Source: Streptomyces sp. NL15-2K
Lineage (GTDB): Bacteria > Actinomycetota > Actinomycetes > Streptomycetales > Streptomycetaceae
Reading direction: 5' to 3'
NCBI RefSeq assembly: GCF_030551255.1
Contig: NZ_CP130630.1
Span: 7,793,501 to 7,857,500, forward strand
Length of the DNA: 64,000 bases
The translations under genes and the position numbers were made by a program. Positions within the stretch are counted from its first letter, which is position 1. Each line of letters starts with the position of its first letter. The notes under the pieces were generated by a model, which made no database searches, was not told the DNA's origin, and worked only from the letters and a program-made list of their open reading frames with translations. Shown here piece by piece: positions 1,726-52,540 of the stretch.

Positions 1726-2793
1726 GTGGCCAGGTTAAGTGGACCCGTTCTGCGCACCCAGAGGCTTGTGATGGAGCCGATCCGCCGCGGGGACAGCGAC
1801 GATCTCTTTGAGGCCGTGGTCAGTCAGGACAGCGTCATGCGATGGCTGGCGACCGGCCGGGCGGACAGTCGATCTGCGGCCGAGGCCATGTGCGACGACC
1901 ACGTCGCCCACTGGACCAGACACGGCTACGGCGACTTTGCGGTCAGGGATGCCGCAACGCACGCGTTTCTCGGCCGGGTGGGACTGCGTAATCGGGCCCA
2001 GCACGGAGTCGACCTCGGTTTCGCCGTGCACCCACGGGCGCAGGGTCGCGGGATCGCTGGCGAGGCGGGCCGTGCGTGCCTGGACCTGGCGTTTCGCCGC
2101 CTCTCGCTCCCCGCCGTTTTCGCCTTCGTCCTGCCCGGCAATGCGGCCTCGATCGCGGTACTGCGCCGCCTGGGCGCCCAGGCGGACGGGACGGTCCAGT
2201 CCAGTGGCCTGCATTGTCTGCGCTACCGGTTCGACCCCGCCGCCGCGGCCGCTGCGGAGCATGCGGGGGACGACGGTGGTGCGGACCTCCAGCTGCTCCA
2301 TGCGCCGGGCCCCGGTTCTCCGGAGGACAAAGCCGCACTCCGCGATGGCCTGTCCGACCCATCCGGGGTGAAGGGGCTCGGTCTGGTGTGGGCCGACAAG
2401 CAGCACACCCTCACCGCCGTCTCCGAAGGCCGGCCGGTGGCTTCCGCGGGATGGCTGCTGCGGGACATGGCCTTCGACGGACTGCCGCGCCGCGCCGCGG
2501 GGCTGGGCGGTCTGCTGGTGCACCCCGCCCATCGAGGCCAGGGCATCGCCCGGACGGTGATCAGCGTGGCGGTCGAGCACGCACGAGCGGCCGGCGCCGA
2601 GACGATGATTCTGCTCTGCCGCCCGGACCTGGTCCCGCTCTACAGGCAGCTGGGATGGAGCCGGCTCTCCGTGCCCGTCACCCTCCAGCAGCCCGACGGC
2701 GCGCGGACATCGCCACTGACCACCATGATCTACGACCTGGCCGGCCTGCCTCATCCCACCATCAGTGTGGACCTGCGGGGCCTGCCCTTCTGA
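1726..2793 (+). CDS. Tandem double-domain GNAT acetyltransferase with early TTA codon
   Basis: A 355-residue protein made of two GNAT folds. Domain 1 (about 5-165) has LRTQRLVMEPIRRGDSDDLF, LGFAVHPRAQGRGIAGEAGRA (acetyl-CoA loop) and PGNAASIAVLRRLGAQ. Domain 2 (about 190-330) has GGLLVHPAHRGQGIARTVIS (a second RGQGIA loop) and VPLYRQLGWSRLS. The GTG at 1726 is preferred over upstream in-frame codons because GAGAGGAG lies at a suitable distance. The fourth codon is TTA, the rare leucine codon read by the bldA tRNA in Streptomyces, so translation may depend on developmental stage. Both acetyl-CoA loops look intact. The substrate is unknown; two-domain GNATs include mycothiol synthase and aminoglycoside acetyltransferases, but no specific match is claimed. 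Confidence 0.85.
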   Translation: MARLSGPVLRTQRLVMEPIRRGDSDDLFEAVVSQDSVMRWLATGRADSRSAAEAMCDDHVAHWTRHGYGDFAVRDAATHAFLGRVGLRNRAQHGVDLGFAVHPRAQGRGIAGEAGRACLDLAFRRLSLPAVFAFVLPGNAASIAVLRRLGAQADGTVQSSGLHCLRYRFDPAAAAAAEHAGDDGGADLQLLHAPGPGSPEDKAALRDGLSDPSGVKGLGLVWADKQHTLTAVSEGRPVASAGWLLRDMAFDGLPRRAAGLGGLLVHPAHRGQGIARTVISVAVEHARAAGAETMILLCRPDLVPLYRQLGWSRLSVPVTLQQPDGARTSPLTTMIYDLAGLPHPTISVDLRGLPF

Positions 2794-2862
2794 TGCGCTG
2801 AGCAGGATTCACCGTGCGGTCAGGCCGCTAGCATCCGCCTCGCTTCGAGATGGGAGCGGAGC

Positions 2863-3780
2863 CTATGCGGGAGAGGGCCAGCCCAAGTCGGATGTCAGAA
2901 CACGATCGAGCGCCGCCCGGCCTGCGGGCCCCCAGGTCGGCTTGCCGCCAGGAAGGCCCCGCTCCCCGTTCTGCCCCATGAGCATAAGGAAGAGGCTCTT
3001 CATAGCGGCCAGCCCGCGGGCGCGCCGGATCGCCGCCTCGTCCGCATGCGCGTACATGTCGAAGAACCGTGAGGCCGTACCCGCGGGTAGCAGCACCCAT
3101 GCGGCGGCGAGATCCCATGCCGGATCGCCGGCGAACATGGCACCGAAGTCGACGATGCCCGAGAGCGTTCCGTCCGAGACGACGACGTTCGCGGGATGAA
3201 GGTCACCGTGCACCCACACCGGCGGGCCCTCCCACTCGGGGGCCGCAACGGCATCGTCCCAGACGGCCCGGACCTCGTCGGCAATGCCGCCGGGGACAAC
3301 GGCTTCAAAGAAGTGGTCGAAGCCGTCCGTGCACTTCTTGGGGTGAGCGCCGAAGTCCGAACTGATCGGCGCCTCGGCGGGCGCCTCCACGTGGAGCGCC
3401 CTGAGGAAGCCCGCCAGTGTGTCGGCCGCGTGGGCGCCGCGGCTGATCGAGCCGTGGTCCAGCGGCTCGCCGGGAACCCACGTCATGACGGTCCAGTGCT
3501 TGGGGAAGCGCTCGGACGGTTCGCCGAACCGCACCGGGGTCGGCACCGGGAGCGGCAAGCGCGGGGCCAGCACGGGTAGCCACCGCCGCTCCTTGAGCTG
3601 GAGCTCCGGGGTGGGGTCCATGCGCTGCATGCGCACGGCCAACTCGTCCCCGAGGCGCCACATTTGGTTGCCCCAGCCGCCCGCCACCTCGCGGATGGCC
3701 AGCCCTGCAAGGTCTGGATGCTGCTCCTGCAACAGGTCGCGGACCAGGTCTGCGGTGATCTCGATCTCGGCGGCGGTCAT
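2863..3780 (-). CDS. Aminoglycoside phosphotransferase (APH) family protein
   Basis: A 305-residue ATP-dependent phosphotransferase of the APH/choline kinase fold. The signature is VWVHGDLHPANVVV (HGDxxxxN catalytic loop, with Asp as base) followed by GIVDFGAMFAGDPAWDLA (metal-binding DFG-like Asp). The N-lobe contains EVAGGWGNQMWRLGDELAVRM, with the conserved nucleotide-binding lysine position apparently taken by Arg. Proteins with this layout are often called macrolide or aminoglycoside phosphotransferases in Streptomyces, but the substrate cannot be fixed from sequence. The gene converges with the tandem GNAT (69-base gap) and starts just beside the left boundary region of the Tn7-like element. 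Confidence 0.85.
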   Translation of the reverse strand: MTAAEIEITADLVRDLLQEQHPDLAGLAIREVAGGWGNQMWRLGDELAVRMQRMDPTPELQLKERRWLPVLAPRLPLPVPTPVRFGEPSERFPKHWTVMTWVPGEPLDHGSISRGAHAADTLAGFLRALHVEAPAEAPISSDFGAHPKKCTDGFDHFFEAVVPGGIADEVRAVWDDAVAAPEWEGPPVWVHGDLHPANVVVSDGTLSGIVDFGAMFAGDPAWDLAAAWVLLPAGTASRFFDMYAHADEAAIRRARGLAAMKSLFLMLMGQNGERGLPGGKPTWGPAGRAALDRVLTSDLGWPSPA

Positions 3781-3993
3781 GCGAAGCCACAGTACGTGAG
3801 ACAGCGGAGCGGACTCTCACTCTCCGGAATGCCCACCGCCACGCCCGTTCCGTCAGCGGTCCTCTCCAGAGCAAGAGGACGCCACGCTACCGGGCATTGG
3901 CGTTGGGCTCAGGTGGAACCAATTGACTCGTTCACAGCGGGCCCCGAAGATCGCTAGCCGGGGCCAGAAGACTCGTTCGAAGCCAGACGGCCA
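3781..3993. other. Non-coding junction holding the left end of the Tn7-like element
   Basis: No gene is seen between the phosphotransferase start and the tniQ stop. The left transposon end must lie here because tniQ ends at 3994. A 9-bp direct repeat GACTCGTTC occurs at 3925-3933 and 3970-3978 (45-bp spacing), the kind of spaced repeat expected for transposase binding sites. I could not find a matching terminal inverted repeat, so the exact boundary is open. Confidence 0.4.
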
Positions 3994-5061
3994 TCAGGAG
4001 AGCGTGTAGTAGCTGTCTCCATTCCGGAGAAGAGTGTGGGTTCGGAAGGGGTGCCAGGCACGCCGGAACACGGTGGCGAGGTGGCGGTGCGCGGTGAGTG
4101 CGTCGCCAGCTCGGTGGGATGGATTGAAGGCGTGGGCATGGCGTTGCTGTGTGCGTTGGGTGGCGGTGCGCGGGGCTGGTTTCCGAAGGTGATGTTTCTG
4201 GTCGTGGACCCGGATAGGAGCAAGCGGCGGGCGCTTGGCGGTCATGTTGGCCCAGTGGCTAATGGGGTCGTTCTCGTGTTGGCCGTAGCGAGGGTGTCGT
4301 AGCCGTCGGGCGATCTCGGCGTTGAAAAGGTGGCGGTCCCAGGCTGTCCTCTGTGCTTGCTGTCTCCAGTGGGGCGATGCGAAGAGCGGGGCCAGTGCAA
4401 CGGCTTCGGGATAGACCGCGGCGCAGAGGCGTGAGACCGAGAAGGTCGCTTCGGCTGTGCCGGGCGGGATGAGGATGTTGGCCCGGCGGATCCAGTCGTG
4501 CCACGCTTCGCCGTTCTCGTTCTCCGGAAGGGACCAGAGCTGGCCGCAGATGAATATGGCGGTGAGGACGGCGTCGTAGGTGATGGCCCAGCCGTGGCGC
4601 TGGAGGATGCGCAGATGTCTGCGTTGTGCCTGGACGATTTCTGGGAGGGCGTCGAGAGGTGTGGTGTGTCCGTCGGCGTCGGACGGGCAGAGCCATAGCC
4701 GGTGTCGGGTGCAGACGTAGCGGTGGTGCGGCAGGATCCTGGTGACCTCGCCGCCGGGGTGTTTGGCGTTGCAATGGTGGCAGCCGGGTTGTGGCTGGTG
4801 GCGGAACATGGCCCAGTCGGGCTGTGGGGTGCGTAGTTCGGGCAGGGCTCCGGCGAGGGCGTGCACCGTCCGGCCCGTGATGGCGGCGAGGCGTTCGGGG
4901 AGGACGGCGCGGCGCATCCCGCCGGAGGCTTCGCGTTCGGTGACGCACCGCCAGAGGGTGTTGATGTCGAGACCGTGGAGCCGGGCCAGACGGCCGATGT
5001 AGGAGGCGGCGATCTCGTGCTGTGCGGGCGGGACGGGGTCGGGCAGGCGGGGGAGAAGCAT
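3994..5061 (-). CDS. tniQ: TniQ family transposon targeting protein
   Basis: A 355-residue TniQ protein, the target-site adaptor of Tn5053/Tn7-like transposons. The N-terminal TniQ domain is recognisable from HEIAASYIGRLARLHGLDIN, followed by the paired zinc-binding motifs CHHCNAKHPGG and YVCTRHRLWLC. The C-terminal half is longer than in short TniQ adaptors and closer in size to TnsD-like versions, but no clear DNA-binding helix-turn-helix was identified. Its ATG overlaps the TGA of tniB (ATGA), so it is the last gene of a translationally coupled operon. It probably recruits the TniB ATPase to the insertion site; the site recognised is not known. Confidence 0.88.
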   Translation of the reverse strand: MLLPRLPDPVPPAQHEIAASYIGRLARLHGLDINTLWRCVTEREASGGMRRAVLPERLAAITGRTVHALAGALPELRTPQPDWAMFRHQPQPGCHHCNAKHPGGEVTRILPHHRYVCTRHRLWLCPSDADGHTTPLDALPEIVQAQRRHLRILQRHGWAITYDAVLTAIFICGQLWSLPENENGEAWHDWIRRANILIPPGTAEATFSVSRLCAAVYPEAVALAPLFASPHWRQQAQRTAWDRHLFNAEIARRLRHPRYGQHENDPISHWANMTAKRPPLAPIRVHDQKHHLRKPAPRTATQRTQQRHAHAFNPSHRAGDALTAHRHLATVFRRAWHPFRTHTLLRNGDSYYTLS

Positions 5062-46362: not shown

Positions 46363-46653
46363 CGCACGGGTGGGAGCGGGGCCCACAGCGCCTACGCACT
46401 GCAGAGGACGAGTCAGTCGGTGGCATGCGCCCGCACCCAGGGACTCGAACACCATCAACAGTTCACTGACGGCGCCTAGCGAACACTCCACTCGCGGGAC
46501 GACGGAGTAGCTGCTCTCCCGGAAGCACGCCACCGCGAAGCGATCATGGTGTAAGCAAGGCTGTGGACGTGCGTCGGCGAGCTTGCAGCGTCAAGTAAAC
46601 CCGTGCGGCGCATAGCAGGACGTTCGCCTGATGTCGTTCAGGAGTGGGGGAGT
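46363..46653. other. Intergenic region at the edge of the accessory island
   Basis: About 290 bases without a gene. The GC content falls through this stretch toward the HNH gene. GGAGTGGGGGAG just before 46654 is that gene's ribosome binding site. No integrase gene or clear attachment repeat was recognised. Confidence 0.4.
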
Positions 46654-48291
46654 ATGGGTACACCACGGATCCCAAAGCCTAAGGATTCCACGCAAAGAGA
46701 ACTCTGGCGCAGAGCAAACGGCATGTGCCAAAAGTGCGGCTGTGAGCTAGATCCCGGAAGGCGGGGGCCTGCACCAACCGCTGAGGTGGCACACATCAGG
46801 GCCCTCCGCAATGGCGGCGCGCGTGCAGTGCCGGGCTTGTCGATAGAGGAAAGAAACTCGATTGACAACCTTATTCTCCTTTGTCCGCAATGCCATGACC
46901 TTGTGGACAAGGATGAGGGGAAATACACGATTTCTGCTCTGCTGAAGATCAAAGCAGAGAATGAGGAGCGGGCGGCCGCTTTGAGGCAATCTGGGCAGTC
47001 GTGGAGGATGCGATTCGCCTCTATTGACTACCTCAACCTTCCTCGCGTTGCCGCTATGCCAGGCGCGAACGTGTTATTGAAGGCTGCCGAAGAGGTGAGT
47101 CTCGATATAGAGCGCCCGTTTCGCGAGCAGGGGGCTACCTCCGGATTCTTCATAGCGAAGATTCATCCACTTTTCGCTGTATGGGATGCTCGGGCGACGC
47201 AACTCACGGATGAGACCGTAGCTCATGTGCAGCACGGTCAAATGGTTGCATTCGAGCAATCGATGCGTGCCCGTAACACATCCTCGCTGCCTGTCATGCC
47301 GAAGTCCATGTCATGGGAAAATGCTCCTCAGCTTGTATGCACTGTCGGCAAGCGGAAAGTGCGCATCCGATTTGATGCGGATTGGATAACTACTGCAACG
47401 CCTGTTGTCGACATAAAGAGCGCGGCGCGTCGATCCGTGGTATACGCCGGCCTGGGCCAGGTTGTGGGCATCACAGACACAGAAATCTTCGTGTCGGCCC
47501 GTCTCTTCGGCCAACCGCAGACATCGGAAAGCGCCATGTGGGACTATCTTAAGTCGTCGCGTAATCCAGGTCCGGATACTCTACTCGTAGACGATTTCGT
47601 GAACGAGTTATCCACGTTGCAGCAACCTCCATCTAAACCCGTCTTGAATCACGGAGCGACGGAATTGAAGACTGTAGCACTGCACTTCGACGAAGATGCG
47701 GTAATTCCTGAGCAGATAGAGCGAGAGCTGTTTGCGCAGATTCTTCGCGTCGTGCCAGAGTTTCGCCGTGATGTCCGAGTGGCTGTCTACAGCATGCCGC
47801 TAACCAGAGTCGCAAAGAGCGGCGTCATCGTGCCAAGTGATGTCGCGGTCGGAATATTGGCTGCGAAGCGCGATCTTTGGAAGACACTTGCCGTTCCGGA
47901 GATGACGACTCTCATTCACTACAAGAATGTCGCTATCGCCAAGGTGGAGGGAGTCTCCATCCAGCAGGCCGACGACCTGCACTCGGTAATGAAGGAGGTG
48001 TCGTCAAGTTATGCGGGCGCGGTAGAGGTAGATCTCGAACTGGATGCCCATCGTCTCATATATGAGGATGTCGCCCGCTATAGGCTTGTGCAATCCGACT
48101 TGCGCCTTCTATGGAGCGAGCTTGAGCGTGCCCTATCTGGTGATGACATTGATGACAAACTCAGTGAGTGGGAAGCGTCAGGCCTATTTGGTCAGGTCAG
48201 TTGGGAAGACGGTCCTGGTCTTCACGATGCCGAGATTCGCGCGCTAGGGAATGAATTCGTCCGATGGTTGGCAGAGGATGACAATCGCTGA
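46654..48291 (+). CDS. HNH endonuclease-domain protein of unknown family (low GC, TTA codons)
   Basis: A 545-residue protein. Its N-terminal 95 residues form an HNH nuclease with C25xxC28, H47 in AEVAHIRA, N72 in DNLILL, C77xxC80 and H81: metal-binding and catalytic positions look complete. The remaining 450 residues, with helices and strands such as YLNLPRVAAMPGANVLL and LHFDEDAVIPEQIEREL, match nothing I know. Base composition is far lower in GC than the surroundings, the codons include AT-ending types, and there are at least two TTA codons (near 47073 and 47606), so it was probably acquired. It could be a defence nuclease or toxin; no immunity partner is seen next to it. Confidence 0.8.
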   Translation: MGTPRIPKPKDSTQRELWRRANGMCQKCGCELDPGRRGPAPTAEVAHIRALRNGGARAVPGLSIEERNSIDNLILLCPQCHDLVDKDEGKYTISALLKIKAENEERAAALRQSGQSWRMRFASIDYLNLPRVAAMPGANVLLKAAEEVSLDIERPFREQGATSGFFIAKIHPLFAVWDARATQLTDETVAHVQHGQMVAFEQSMRARNTSSLPVMPKSMSWENAPQLVCTVGKRKVRIRFDADWITTATPVVDIKSAARRSVVYAGLGQVVGITDTEIFVSARLFGQPQTSESAMWDYLKSSRNPGPDTLLVDDFVNELSTLQQPPSKPVLNHGATELKTVALHFDEDAVIPEQIERELFAQILRVVPEFRRDVRVAVYSMPLTRVAKSGVIVPSDVAVGILAAKRDLWKTLAVPEMTTLIHYKNVAIAKVEGVSIQQADDLHSVMKEVSSSYAGAVEVDLELDAHRLIYEDVARYRLVQSDLRLLWSELERALSGDDIDDKLSEWEASGLFGQVSWEDGPGLHDAEIRALGNEFVRWLAEDDNR

Positions 48292-48886: not shown

Positions 48887-49252
48887 ATGCCGGTCCTCAT
48901 GGTCCGCGCCGGCTTGCTGGTCCGAGCCAGAACGCTCGACGCCGCGGATGCCCTCACCAAGAGGTGGGGCCTGGGCGGCGGCGACGTGTGGGGCATGAGC
49001 CCTTTCGGAGGCAGCACCAGCGCCCCGGTGTGGGCCAGGATCGACCCACGCGTCTTCCTCCGTGACAGCATCCAACTCTCGTGCATACAGGCGGCGTTCA
49101 GAGCCGCCTATCACCTCCCCCAAGCCGACTCCGTCGCCGTGGGCACCGATGATCCCGCCCATCTGGGCGAACTCGTCGGTGCCCTGGCGGCCGAGGTCGA
49201 GGAGCGAACCGTCCAGGAGTATCGGAGTCTCCTTCGGAACCGCTCGCGAGGG
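48887..49252 (+). pseudogene. Remnant resembling the C-terminal part of an oxidoreductase
   Basis: An open frame of about 120 residues includes WGMSPFGGSTSAPVWARIDP, a long helix and SVAVGTDDPAHLGELVGALA with EYRSLLRNRSRG at the end. The GTDDPAHL segment recalls the C-terminal part of aldo/keto reductase-like proteins, but no catalytic residues are present and I am not sure of the family. It has no ribosome binding site of note and runs into the end of the phosphotransferase pseudogene on the other strand. Confidence 0.4.
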
Positions 49253-49683
49253 TCAGCCCTCCTGAAGCTCCTTAATGACCTGCTCGGCCATGCGCCGGGC
49301 GGGTTCCAGCCGGGGGTCTTCCGGGTGCGCGTACGGCCCGAGGATCTTCGAGCAGGCGAACAACGTCATCAGTTTGCCGTCCCGGCTCTCGAAGTCGGAC
49401 CGGCGCTCGTGCCGTACGCGATCGGCCAGAGCCGGGACAGCAAGGGAACTCGCCCCATAGGGAGGCCGAATCCAACCCCAGCGGTGCGCTACCCCAGTCC
49501 TCCCAGTCGAAGAGGGTCACTAACAGCGGACCGATTGGCTTGGGTTTCCTTGGTGTTGCTGTGATTCTTCCGGTCTCATCGGGGTTCTTGCGGTTGCTGC
49601 GTGACCTTTCCGGGCGGGGTGCGTTGTGTAAGTGAGTTCGATGATCGGACAGCGGTTCTGGGTGGCTGGGCGGGGGTGACAGG

Positions 49684-51774
49684 GTGCGGCGGAAGGTCGA
49701 GCTGGGTGAGGGGCAGGCGGCGCGGGTGGCGTGCGCGTCGGCGTGCGCGTTCCGTGGCCTGGATGCCGTCACCGGCGAAGCCCTGGGCGCCGATGCGCTG
49801 GCCGGGAGGGTGGGCTGGCTGACGGCCCTGGTCGAGAGCATGTGTGCCGAAGTGACCGGCACCCGCTGGAACCGCCCGGACCTGGCCCGGCTCGCCTGCG
49901 GGCGGGACCGGTCGGGGCAGCGGCTGCCGTCGAACGCGTGGATGGCGCTGCGGATGCTGGGCTGGGCGGCGACTGCCCCGGAGGGGGTGTACGTTCCTGA
50001 CCGGGTGCGGCGGGTCGCCGAGGAGCAGGCCGGGCGGGCGCTGCGCTCGGCCTGGTGGCGTACGCAGATCACCGACGCGGTACTGGCCACCTGGCCCACC
50101 GGCCCCGACGCCGATCCGATGCGGCGCACCGGGGCCGAGTGGGAGGCGCTGCGGGCCGCCTGTCCGGACGGGCAAGCGGTGGCGGCCTCGGTGCTGCGCT
50201 CCCGTACCCGGCAGGTGGCCGCCTTCCACACCACGCATGGTCGGCTGCCCGCCGACCTGTGCGAGCTGGAGGCGGCGCCGGGCGGCGGCCGTCAGGTGGT
50301 GCTCGCCGCCGCCGACAAACAGCTGGCCACGCTGGCCCGCTGCGAGGACGACCCGGCCCGCTACGCGGTGCTGACCGTGCGCCTGCCGGTGCGGCCCGAC
50401 CCCCGCACCCGCGCCGACTGGCACCCCGTGGTGATCCGGTTCCGGCTGCCGCCCACCATCCCCGTCACGGCCGCCCTGCACGCCCCGACCCTGCGCCTGC
50501 GCGGCGGACGCCTGCGCCTGGACGTCGCCCACACCACCGCCGTGCCCACGACCCGGCGGGACGGGCATGTGCGGGCGGTGGCCTTCGACTACGGGCTGAA
50601 CACCCTGCTCACCGGCGGGACGCTGACCCTGGCCGGCGGCGCCCAGCCGGCCGTGCACACCGACGCCCGCCCCGTCTTCTTCCGTGCGGACGGGGTGCTG
50701 GCCAAGGCCGACCGGCTGCGCATCCAGGCCGAACAGCTCTGGGCCAAGGCCGCCCACCTGCAGTCCCTGACCGACGGCCGCACCGCATCCGGGCTGCGCC
50801 CCGATCCGCTCACGGCGGCGAAGCTGGCGGTGCTGCGCACCGAGCACGCCCGGGTGAGCAAGCGTCGTACGCGGCTGAACGAGCAGCTCGCCAAGGCCGC
50901 CGCCCACTTCATGGTCGGCCACGCCCGCGCCGCAAGAGCGTCGGTGATCTACCTGGAGGACCTGCGAGACATGGAGGCCCGGGGCAAGGGCCGCACCCTG
51001 AACACCCGCCTGTCCAGCAGTGTGCGCGGGCAGATCGTCACCCACACCCGCCACCAGGCCGCGAAATACGGCATCGCGGTAGTCATCGTCCCCGCCCGCG
51101 GCACCTCCAGGTACTGCCCCACCTGCCTGAGCGTCTTCCGGCACCGCGCCGCCCCCGACCGCACCACACCGGGCTGGAAATGGGCGAGCTGCCCCGACAC
51201 CGCCTGCGGCTACAGCACCGACCGGGACGTCGCCGCCTGGCAGCGGATCGGCGCCCGCGGCCTGCAACACCAGCACACAACCGTCCTGGACCGCGCGAGT
51301 GGCACCTACGTGATCCGCCGCACGGCCCCGGAGCTGGACCGGCCGGTCCGGCACACCACCCACCCCAGGCCCGCCATCCCCGACGGTACGCGGCAGCAGT
51401 CCGCTGTTGCCGTGGACCGGACGAAGGCGGGACCGACGAGAAACCGCCCTGTGCCCAGGCAGCGACGCAGGGTCCCCGCCCCACCCACAACACCCGCAGC
51501 GCAGACCGCCGTTGCGGGCCCGGGTGGAAAGCGTCCGGCGGGGCGGATGCCCCAGTCACCCACCCACCGCACCCAGCGGCGGCGCAGGCGGCAGGCACCG
51601 CACACGATGAGCACCCCCACCCGGCACCAGCCACGTGGGGCCAGACTCGGCGCAGGCTTCCACCTGCACACCCACGCCACCCCCGTCACACGACCGGTAC
51701 GGCCAGGGACACAGCCGAGATCACTTTTCCACCGGAGCTGGGCCGACAACCCAGCCCCACCCAGGAAAACCTAA
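49684..51774 (+). CDS. tnpB: TnpB-like RuvC RNA-guided nuclease with long basic C-terminal tail
   Basis: A 696-residue TnpB-family protein. The three RuvC motifs are intact: D302 in VRAVAFDYGLN, E425 in SVIYLEDLRDM and D515 in STDRDVAAW. The zinc ribbon is C478xxC481 and C503...C508. Typical TnpB proteins are about 400 residues; here the N-terminal part before RuvC-I is about 300 and a 170-residue Arg/Pro/Thr-rich tail follows residue 525. The tail region runs to within 10 bases of the element's right end, where the guide-RNA gene of such elements lies, so it may be translated through the RNA-coding stretch. TnpB cuts DNA using the RNA and helps the element persist. The GTG start is tentative. 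Confidence 0.88.
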   Translation: MRRKVELGEGQAARVACASACAFRGLDAVTGEALGADALAGRVGWLTALVESMCAEVTGTRWNRPDLARLACGRDRSGQRLPSNAWMALRMLGWAATAPEGVYVPDRVRRVAEEQAGRALRSAWWRTQITDAVLATWPTGPDADPMRRTGAEWEALRAACPDGQAVAASVLRSRTRQVAAFHTTHGRLPADLCELEAAPGGGRQVVLAAADKQLATLARCEDDPARYAVLTVRLPVRPDPRTRADWHPVVIRFRLPPTIPVTAALHAPTLRLRGGRLRLDVAHTTAVPTTRRDGHVRAVAFDYGLNTLLTGGTLTLAGGAQPAVHTDARPVFFRADGVLAKADRLRIQAEQLWAKAAHLQSLTDGRTASGLRPDPLTAAKLAVLRTEHARVSKRRTRLNEQLAKAAAHFMVGHARAARASVIYLEDLRDMEARGKGRTLNTRLSSSVRGQIVTHTRHQAAKYGIAVVIVPARGTSRYCPTCLSVFRHRAAPDRTTPGWKWASCPDTACGYSTDRDVAAWQRIGARGLQHQHTTVLDRASGTYVIRRTAPELDRPVRHTTHPRPAIPDGTRQQSAVAVDRTKAGPTRNRPVPRQRRRVPAPPTTPAAQTAVAGPGGKRPAGRMPQSPTHRTQRRRRRQAPHTMSTPTRHQPRGARLGAGFHLHTHATPVTRPVRPGTQPRSLFHRSWADNPAPPRKT

Positions 51775-51784
51775 GCTCATCCGT
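51260..51784 (+). ncRNA. Predicted region of the TnpB guide RNA (overlapping the tnpB tail)
   Basis: In TnpB elements the RNA scaffold is transcribed from the 3' end of tnpB up to the right border and the guide is read from the flanking DNA. Here that would be the 3' part after the RuvC-III motif up to 51784, with the guide starting at 51785 (GACGCTGAATGTCGGC). The 5' limit is unknown, and no secondary structure other than the terminal hairpin was worked out. Confidence 0.35.
51737..51755 (+). repeat. Subterminal hairpin at right end of tnpB element
   Basis: GCTGGG-N7-CCCAGC forms a 6-bp stem about 29 bases inside the right border. IS200/IS605 right ends carry such hairpins, which also form the 3' part of the guide RNA. 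Confidence 0.6.
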
Positions 51785-52540
51785 GACGCTGAATGTCGGC
51801 GCGGTCATGTTCGCCCAATTCAGGTCCGCGTGGGCCGGCACCCACCGCTCCACAGTCGTATCGAAGTCGCCGGAGAAGACACCACGGATGGACTCGGTGA
51901 CGAGGGCCTGGGTGATAGTGACGGTGTCCGGTGTGGCGACCCGCCCAGTGTCCTGTGCCGCCAGGGCGTCCAACGAGGCGTTCAAGGCCTCCCACCAGTC
52001 GTCCGGCAGTCCGGGACTTCACTCAGGATGGCGCTTCCGACGGGAGCCCCCGGCAGAAGCTCAGTTTCATCCGCCCGCCACATCACCGGCTCGTCCGTGT
52101 CCCGCCAGACCACACATCCGTGCCACTCGGGCTGGGCGATGCCTTCCAGACGCGCTGCACTCTCAGTGCCGTTCTACTCCTGATCGGGGATCTTGTCGAG
52201 CAAGCGCCGCTCGATGCGCACCCAGGTGTCGCGGACTGTTCTGGCCCCCACGGACCGGCGTTTGCGCACCAACGTATCCGGGAGCAAGCGCACTTGCAGC
52301 GACCGCTCGACGCGATCAAGAACCTCGTCAACCGGCTGTACCCGTAGATCAATAGTCTGACCGGTGGAGACCGAGAGCGTCATGGATGCGACCGTAGCAG
52401 TGGTGCGGCGAGAGGTGACGGATGTGAGGTCCCCGCCCTCTGCCGACCGCGATGGGCAGCGGCTCCGGGACCGGTCCCGACAACGACGACTACGGTTCAC
52501 GGCGGCCCGAACCGTACCCCCCACAGGGAGGAAACCCTCC

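Follow-up and report, generated by a model that had tools for sequence, protein, structure and literature searches.

The TnpB proteins of IS200/IS605 elements, such as that of ISDra2, have an RNA-guided nuclease fold and use a motif on the left flank of the element together with a guide taken from its right flank. For IS200/IS605 elements in plasmids, TnpB has been reported to have a gene-drive or retention role (PMC11870625; this and the other articles cited here by PMC number are represented by part of their text). In the IS607 elements, recombination is reported to take place at an identical GG dinucleotide, and the sole target preference described is for (G)GG (PMC6188088, PMC4058570). The motifs published for IS607 TnpBs are AGGAG and GAGGG, with the RNA described as separate from the coding sequence (PMC11061315), and in ISXfa1 the transposase fixes the base that flanks the element on the right, and this base serves as scaffold rather than as guide (PMC10711439). 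Among the matches listed by a literature search of partial coverage, no title concerned an IS607 TnpB of Streptomyces.

We analysed a stretch of 64,000 nucleotides (the window) from the 12.4 Mb genome of Streptomyces sp. NL15-2K, in which a tnpB element interrupts a minus-strand phosphotransferase gene (Table 1). The system is of an already known kind, with a corrected motif and guide predicted here for this member. It is quite probably a tnpA-less tnpB element of the IS607 lineage, lodged between AGG and CT, whose guide RNA would run into the host sequence and whose nuclease would cut AGGCT followed by the guide. Like the TnpB-bearing IS607 elements ISXfa1 and ISFba1, it has a TnpB lineage tied in relatives to a serine transposase, no target duplication and a fixed right-flank base; unlike them, it is without tnpA, has AGGCT rather than GG as its target, belongs to a subfamily with one base in common between the borders, and encodes a TnpB of 696 aa whose disordered tail overlaps the predicted RNA. 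With the IS200/IS605 elements (ISDra2) it has in common an RNA-guided nuclease fold, a left motif and a right guide, all of them predicted here, but it is without a Y1 transposase (the sole one found in the genome adjoins a different TnpB) and its right flank is constrained, with CT in 11/11 close and 19/22 distant loci. Cas12f resembles the window TnpB in giving the best structural matches and in the TNB domain, yet this tnpB lies in a mobile element, and no regularly spaced repeat (CRISPR) array was found within 49300-52000.

Table 1. Positions in the window of the tnpB element, its predicted functional parts and the interrupted host gene
Feature	Position	Strand	Basis or remark
Element, tnpB-carrying	49516..51788	+	2273 bp; empty homologues and ends common to close copies
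AGG, host side of left border	49513..49515	+	empty homologue; 11/12 close copies; bases 1-3 of predicted motif AGGCT
CT, host side of right border	51789..51790	+	empty homologue; 11/11 close right ends; 19/22 distant loci
tnpB, 696 aa	49684..51774	+	ORF open from 49645
D302 codon, RuvC I	50587..50589	+	9/9 intact close copies; at least 90% of 47 homologues
E425 codon, RuvC II	50956..50958	+	9/9 intact close copies; invariant in 47 homologues
D515 codon, RuvC III	51226..51228	+	9/9 intact close copies; invariant in 47 homologues
Predicted guide-RNA scaffold	51600..51790	+	overlaps tnpB 3' end; ends GACG + host CT; fold z -5.98
Closing stem, 5' strand GATGAGC	51606..51612	+	predicted fold, alignment
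Closing stem, 3' strand GCTCATC	51775..51781	+	predicted fold, alignment
Predicted guide GAATGTCGGCGCGGTC	51791..51806	+	first freely varying position after conserved border among copies (inferred)
Phosphotransferase, N-terminal part, interrupted and decayed	51789..52383	-	homology to relatives' loci
Phosphotransferase, C-terminal part, same gene	49253..49515	-	sequence comparison

By sequence comparison, the element is real, but the borders first assigned to it were off by 2 bp on the left and 4 bp on the right. The original prediction had joined 49517 to 51785 as a base-exact empty site, with a restored frame reading FSVTLFDWEDW. Searching 199 genomes of the genus with one phosphotransferase flank gave 47 matched genomes (the own genome included, and some of them weakly); thirty phosphotransferase loci were fetched, of which one is the window itself (L037) and one gave no read (L050), leaving 28 for comparison. 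All 28 have the protein spacing FSLFDWEDW across the insertion site, with the two extra residues absent, which contradicts the earlier join. The closest empty homologue (L038, 95% identical over 65 aa) reads GAAGAGG/CTGAACG, the slash marking the junction, and the occupied site in the window reads GAAGAGG/GTCACTAAC ... GTGACG/CTGAATG; the DNA of the other empty homologues differs from that of L038 at single positions. Given the 28 loci without the extra residues and the L038 junction, host sequence stops at 49515 on the left and resumes at 51789 on the right, with a one-base (G) ambiguity that would allow 49515-51787 as the alternative. The empty site was thus recoverable from relatives, as had been foreseen, every one of the 28 loci being empty. 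The frame had seemed to be restored by the earlier join because the six element bases that it retained, GT and GACG, make exactly two codons. What does stand is a local restoration of frame on joining the flanks; it does not extend to the rest of the gene, since the phosphotransferase is also disrupted, away from the insertion, by one in-frame stop and by two breaks in the frame. An element ending in GACGCT, with the host resuming at 51791, is ruled out, as the empty homologues retain the CT. No target-site duplication is present at the empty sites, where at most one base is in common, and no inverted-repeat pair of at least 12 nt links the two ends, which match only as GTCAC/GTGAC.

The same borders recur in close copies, of which we compared twelve: eight in the own genome, counted by left end, and four from three named Streptomyces strains. 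AGG stands at the left border in 11 of the 12 (the exception is L034), GACG followed by CT stands at the right border in all 11 that have a right end, and the host sequence outside AGG and CT varies. Several interrupted host genes allow the AGG/CT join to be compared with a join of the earlier type. For L032, the three homologues fetched (16 records matched) all read ALE-[S/N]LVDA, which corresponds to the AGG/CT join, and no Pfam match was obtained with either join. The AGG/CT join scores higher against Pfam GerE in L003 (25.8 vs 18.0) and against GFO_IDH_MocA_C3 in L125 (71.4 vs 66.0), where, of two homologues fetched, L152 fits AGG/CT and L151 gave no read. L029 goes slightly the other way (AAA_16, 34.5 for AGG/CT vs 34.6; NB-ARC, 19.8 vs 21.7); its three homologues read [T/Q]RLVTLTGPGG, which is compatible with AGG/CT, though the linker varies in length.

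Some copies are rearranged. In L033 (4080-5482), the left end and the N-terminal part of tnpB are joined to the remainder of a cation antiporter-like gene without a right end, which suggests that this end was lost by deletion after insertion. In L035 (genome C1:1609026-1612464), the right end is inverted and lies ~1.2 kb away. L003 (3831-5180) has lost the middle of tnpB while keeping both ends and the RNA region, and is possibly an RNA-only element. L002 has the direct repeat CTGCACGGATAGCC on both sides, around 1095 and 3356, outside AGG and CT.

Beyond the close copies, a distant right end matched 28 of the 199 genus genomes, and from the 46 places listed we hand-picked 22 distant loci, mostly matches reaching the right end. 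The right border reads GAGACG/CT in 19 of these 22; L137, with GAGACG/TT at the right and AGA aligned at the left, is an exception to AGG/CT (its element spans 2087-4245), and in L142 and L144 neither such a right end nor a TnpB match was found. Left borders of the distant loci were called by the motif AGG[CG]TC and are therefore circular for AGG. Alignments of left ends made without the motif start at AGG or 1-4 bases earlier in 10 of 13 pairs; two of the remaining pairs extend past AGG and one starts inside it. Both borders could be tabulated for 25 sites. In 13 of them the left reads AGGCT, with CT common to both borders; the remaining 12, which comprise the window's subfamily as well as L070, L081 and L087, have GT at the left, and only one G is common to their borders. 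The tabulation leaves out L033, L034 and L035 (each with an end that is absent, atypical or out of place), L085, L124, L127, L128, L134, L135, L137, L138, L141, L142 and L144 (where a left border was not accepted or such an end was absent) and L133 (the same insertion as L131); L126 and L136 have common flanks and are not independent. Plasmid searches for the empty L069 and L070 sites returned no informative site among the matches listed (at most 10).

These borders bear directly on the motif and the guide. AGGGT or GGGT had been proposed as the target-adjacent motif, and AGGGT is indeed found at the left in 11 of 12 close copies; the empty sites, however, place the GT inside the element. Nor is GGGT constant in the wider family, in which 13 of the 25 sites read AGGCT instead, the kind of inconsistent border that the original prediction had itself named as its refutation. 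A guide from the right flank is what we too would expect, with its start moved from 51785 to 51791: GACGCT is present at 11/11 close right ends and GAGACGCT in 19/22 distant loci, and because GACGCT recurs at the right border of unrelated insertions it is not a site-specific guide. By the logic applied to the scaffold base of ISXfa1, AGG and CT together would make up the motif AGGCT, with GACGCT as scaffold and the guide beginning at 51791; CT (51789-51790) would then be the last two bases of the motif and is taken as scaffold in the predicted RNA. That AGGCT is found at every close two-ended site except L034 is not chance, since the whole window contains 67 AGGCT on both strands. A palindromic recombinase target, CAG-G-CTG, was set aside, its outer bases being no more than biased. 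In the own genome, a search for AGGCT followed by 13 bases of the guide, with at most 3 mismatches, revealed no further intact target; it gave 20 hits vs 13 for the reversed pattern, and of these hits only the right flank of the element itself has fewer than 3 mismatches.

The original prediction as a whole (borders 49517/51785, motif GGGT, guide GACGCTGAATGTCGGC) draws on a join that keeps the local frame and on the AGGGT of the close copies, and we regard it as highly improbable given the residues absent from all 28 homologous loci, the GACGCT at unrelated sites and the C-type relatives that read AGGCT. One might instead take AGG/CT for nothing but a target preference of the transposase, with a shorter or different TnpB motif and a guide that starts a few bases off. 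After the right CT, G predominates (16 of the 25 sites, vs 7 with T and 2 with C), so that the target may exceed five bases, as this proposal would allow. We think it unlikely, as in the available text published IS607 transposition prefers only (G)GG (PMC6188088), and five-base IS607 TnpB motifs are on record (PMC11061315).

Consistent with a guide RNA at the right end, 51600-51789 folds at -79.5 kcal/mol (z -5.98), and of the 73 segments scanned over 49100-52300 only this right-end stretch has a z at or below -4. The closing stem is identical in the folds of L069 (z -4.20) and L086 (z -6.31); a strong fold (z -6.39) is likewise predicted for the right end of L081, where the closing stem differs in sequence. 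In four relatives the stem GATGAGC/GCTCATC is changed to GATCAGC/GCTGATC. Over the alignment, 98.5% of cells pair in the predicted structure vs 32-38% when it is slid, and the covariation score is above that of all 500 shuffles. Only one pair is changed on both sides, a number equalled by 414 of 500 shuffles, so that covariation amounts to at most one event; RNAalifold likewise gives covariation terms close to zero. Rfam gave no credible match, its two hits (best E 0.18) both lying far below gathering.

The prediction of a tnpB gene at the core of the element holds up: the product has a Cas12f1-like_TNB domain (Pfam PF07282; 38.6 bits, cut-off 26.3) and, as had been claimed, intact RuvC residues D302, E425 and D515, so that a TnpB-type nuclease is encoded whose activity is predicted. 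The match to NCBIfam guided_TnpB is sub-threshold (45.7 bits, cut-off 100). Among 7,994 candidates scored, 753 are homologues at E <= 0.001, of which 120 were listed; the zinc cysteines C478, C481, C503 and C508 are invariant in the 47 of these that were aligned, and those matches listed that carry source names come from actinomycetes (Streptomyces, Micromonospora, Nonomuraea). In the AlphaFold2 model (mean pLDDT 72.6, pTM 0.49) the chain is disordered from residue 548. The best solved-structure matches of the model are Cas12f, with the ISFba1 TnpB at rank 15 and global TM-scores that are low, and a sequence search against the PDB returned a sole match, a Cas12f at E 0.11. A 562-aa ORF with an HNH endonuclease domain lies upstream of the element (46603-48291).

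Over 36 pairs from nine copies, median dN/dS is 0.30 for the tnpB core (dS 0.17) and 0.70 for the tail over the RNA region (dS 0.10). On these ratios the core is under purifying selection, and the low dS and higher dN/dS of the tail are what would be expected if the DNA there were kept for its RNA. Domestication or decay, in which the nuclease no longer works or has taken on another role such as gene regulation, would agree with the absence of tnpA, the decayed host gene and the ORF that is broken or truncated in 3 of the 12 close copies; with the triad present in 9/9 intact copies, the low ratio in the core and copies at many unrelated sites, we consider it very unlikely. TldR proteins are nuclease-dead regulators that lack the catalytic residues, unlike the window TnpB, which retains its RuvC triad.

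No match to a serine transposase TnpA was found in the window element or in the 11 other close copies, nor in 19 of the 22 distant loci; L135 retains a tnpA fragment. An IS607-type serine transposase precedes a homologous TnpB in an S. mirabilis plasmid (L069) and in L130 and L143, an annotated IS607 transposase lies upstream of a TnpB homologue in a Mycolicibacterium plasmid (L071), and in the own genome L081 pairs such a serine transposase with a TnpB 44% identical to that of the window. Since TnpA is absent from the element but paired with homologous TnpB elsewhere, the element is, to judge from its sequence relationships, tnpA-less and of the IS607 lineage, not a full IS607 member. The L081 transposase is a candidate for acting on it in trans. 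The Y1 transposase of the own genome is ruled out as a partner because it adjoins a different TnpB; it belongs to a separate element (L067, genome C1:2501201) with a 440-aa TnpB.

The borders themselves fit IS607 recombination imperfectly. The matching 2-bp overlap, GG in IS607, is absent in elements of the window type, which have GT at the left and CT at the right, and the family has five fixed target bases vs the (G)GG of IS607. L081, despite having its own tnpA, is of the same border type. The crossover may differ in this clade, the mismatch may be tolerated, or selection by TnpB may shape the sites that are observed. Carried to its conclusion, the last of these would have the nuclease select the sites, with insertions persisting only at AGGCT and the mismatched-border subfamily kept and spread mainly by TnpB-driven repair. 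Both borders would then look fixed because elements persist only at the TnpB motif, the transposase itself needing just a short core, and without a common border dinucleotide, clean excision by a serine transposase would be impossible. We hold this to be rather doubtful.

We thus favor insertion by a borrowed transposase: the serine transposase of another element probably placed the tnpB element between AGG and CT. Its last ~185 bases would, from their structure and conservation, give rise to a guide RNA in which GACG and the host CT close the scaffold and the host sequence from 51791 forms the guide. By analogy with published TnpBs, the TnpB and its RNA would cut AGGCT followed by GAATGTCGGCGCGGTC, an unoccupied copy of this very site, which would favor retention of the element. 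Against this explanation stand the missing tnpA, the single common border base, L034 and L137, the Pfam scores of L029, the thin covariation, the low TM-scores and the sub-threshold NCBIfam match.

For a family of long TnpBs, the locus yields a motif and a guide that can be tested, and it illustrates that a six-base error that preserves the reading frame can yield the wrong guide. The border mismatch, if upheld, has implications for the mobility of TnpB elements that are without tnpA.
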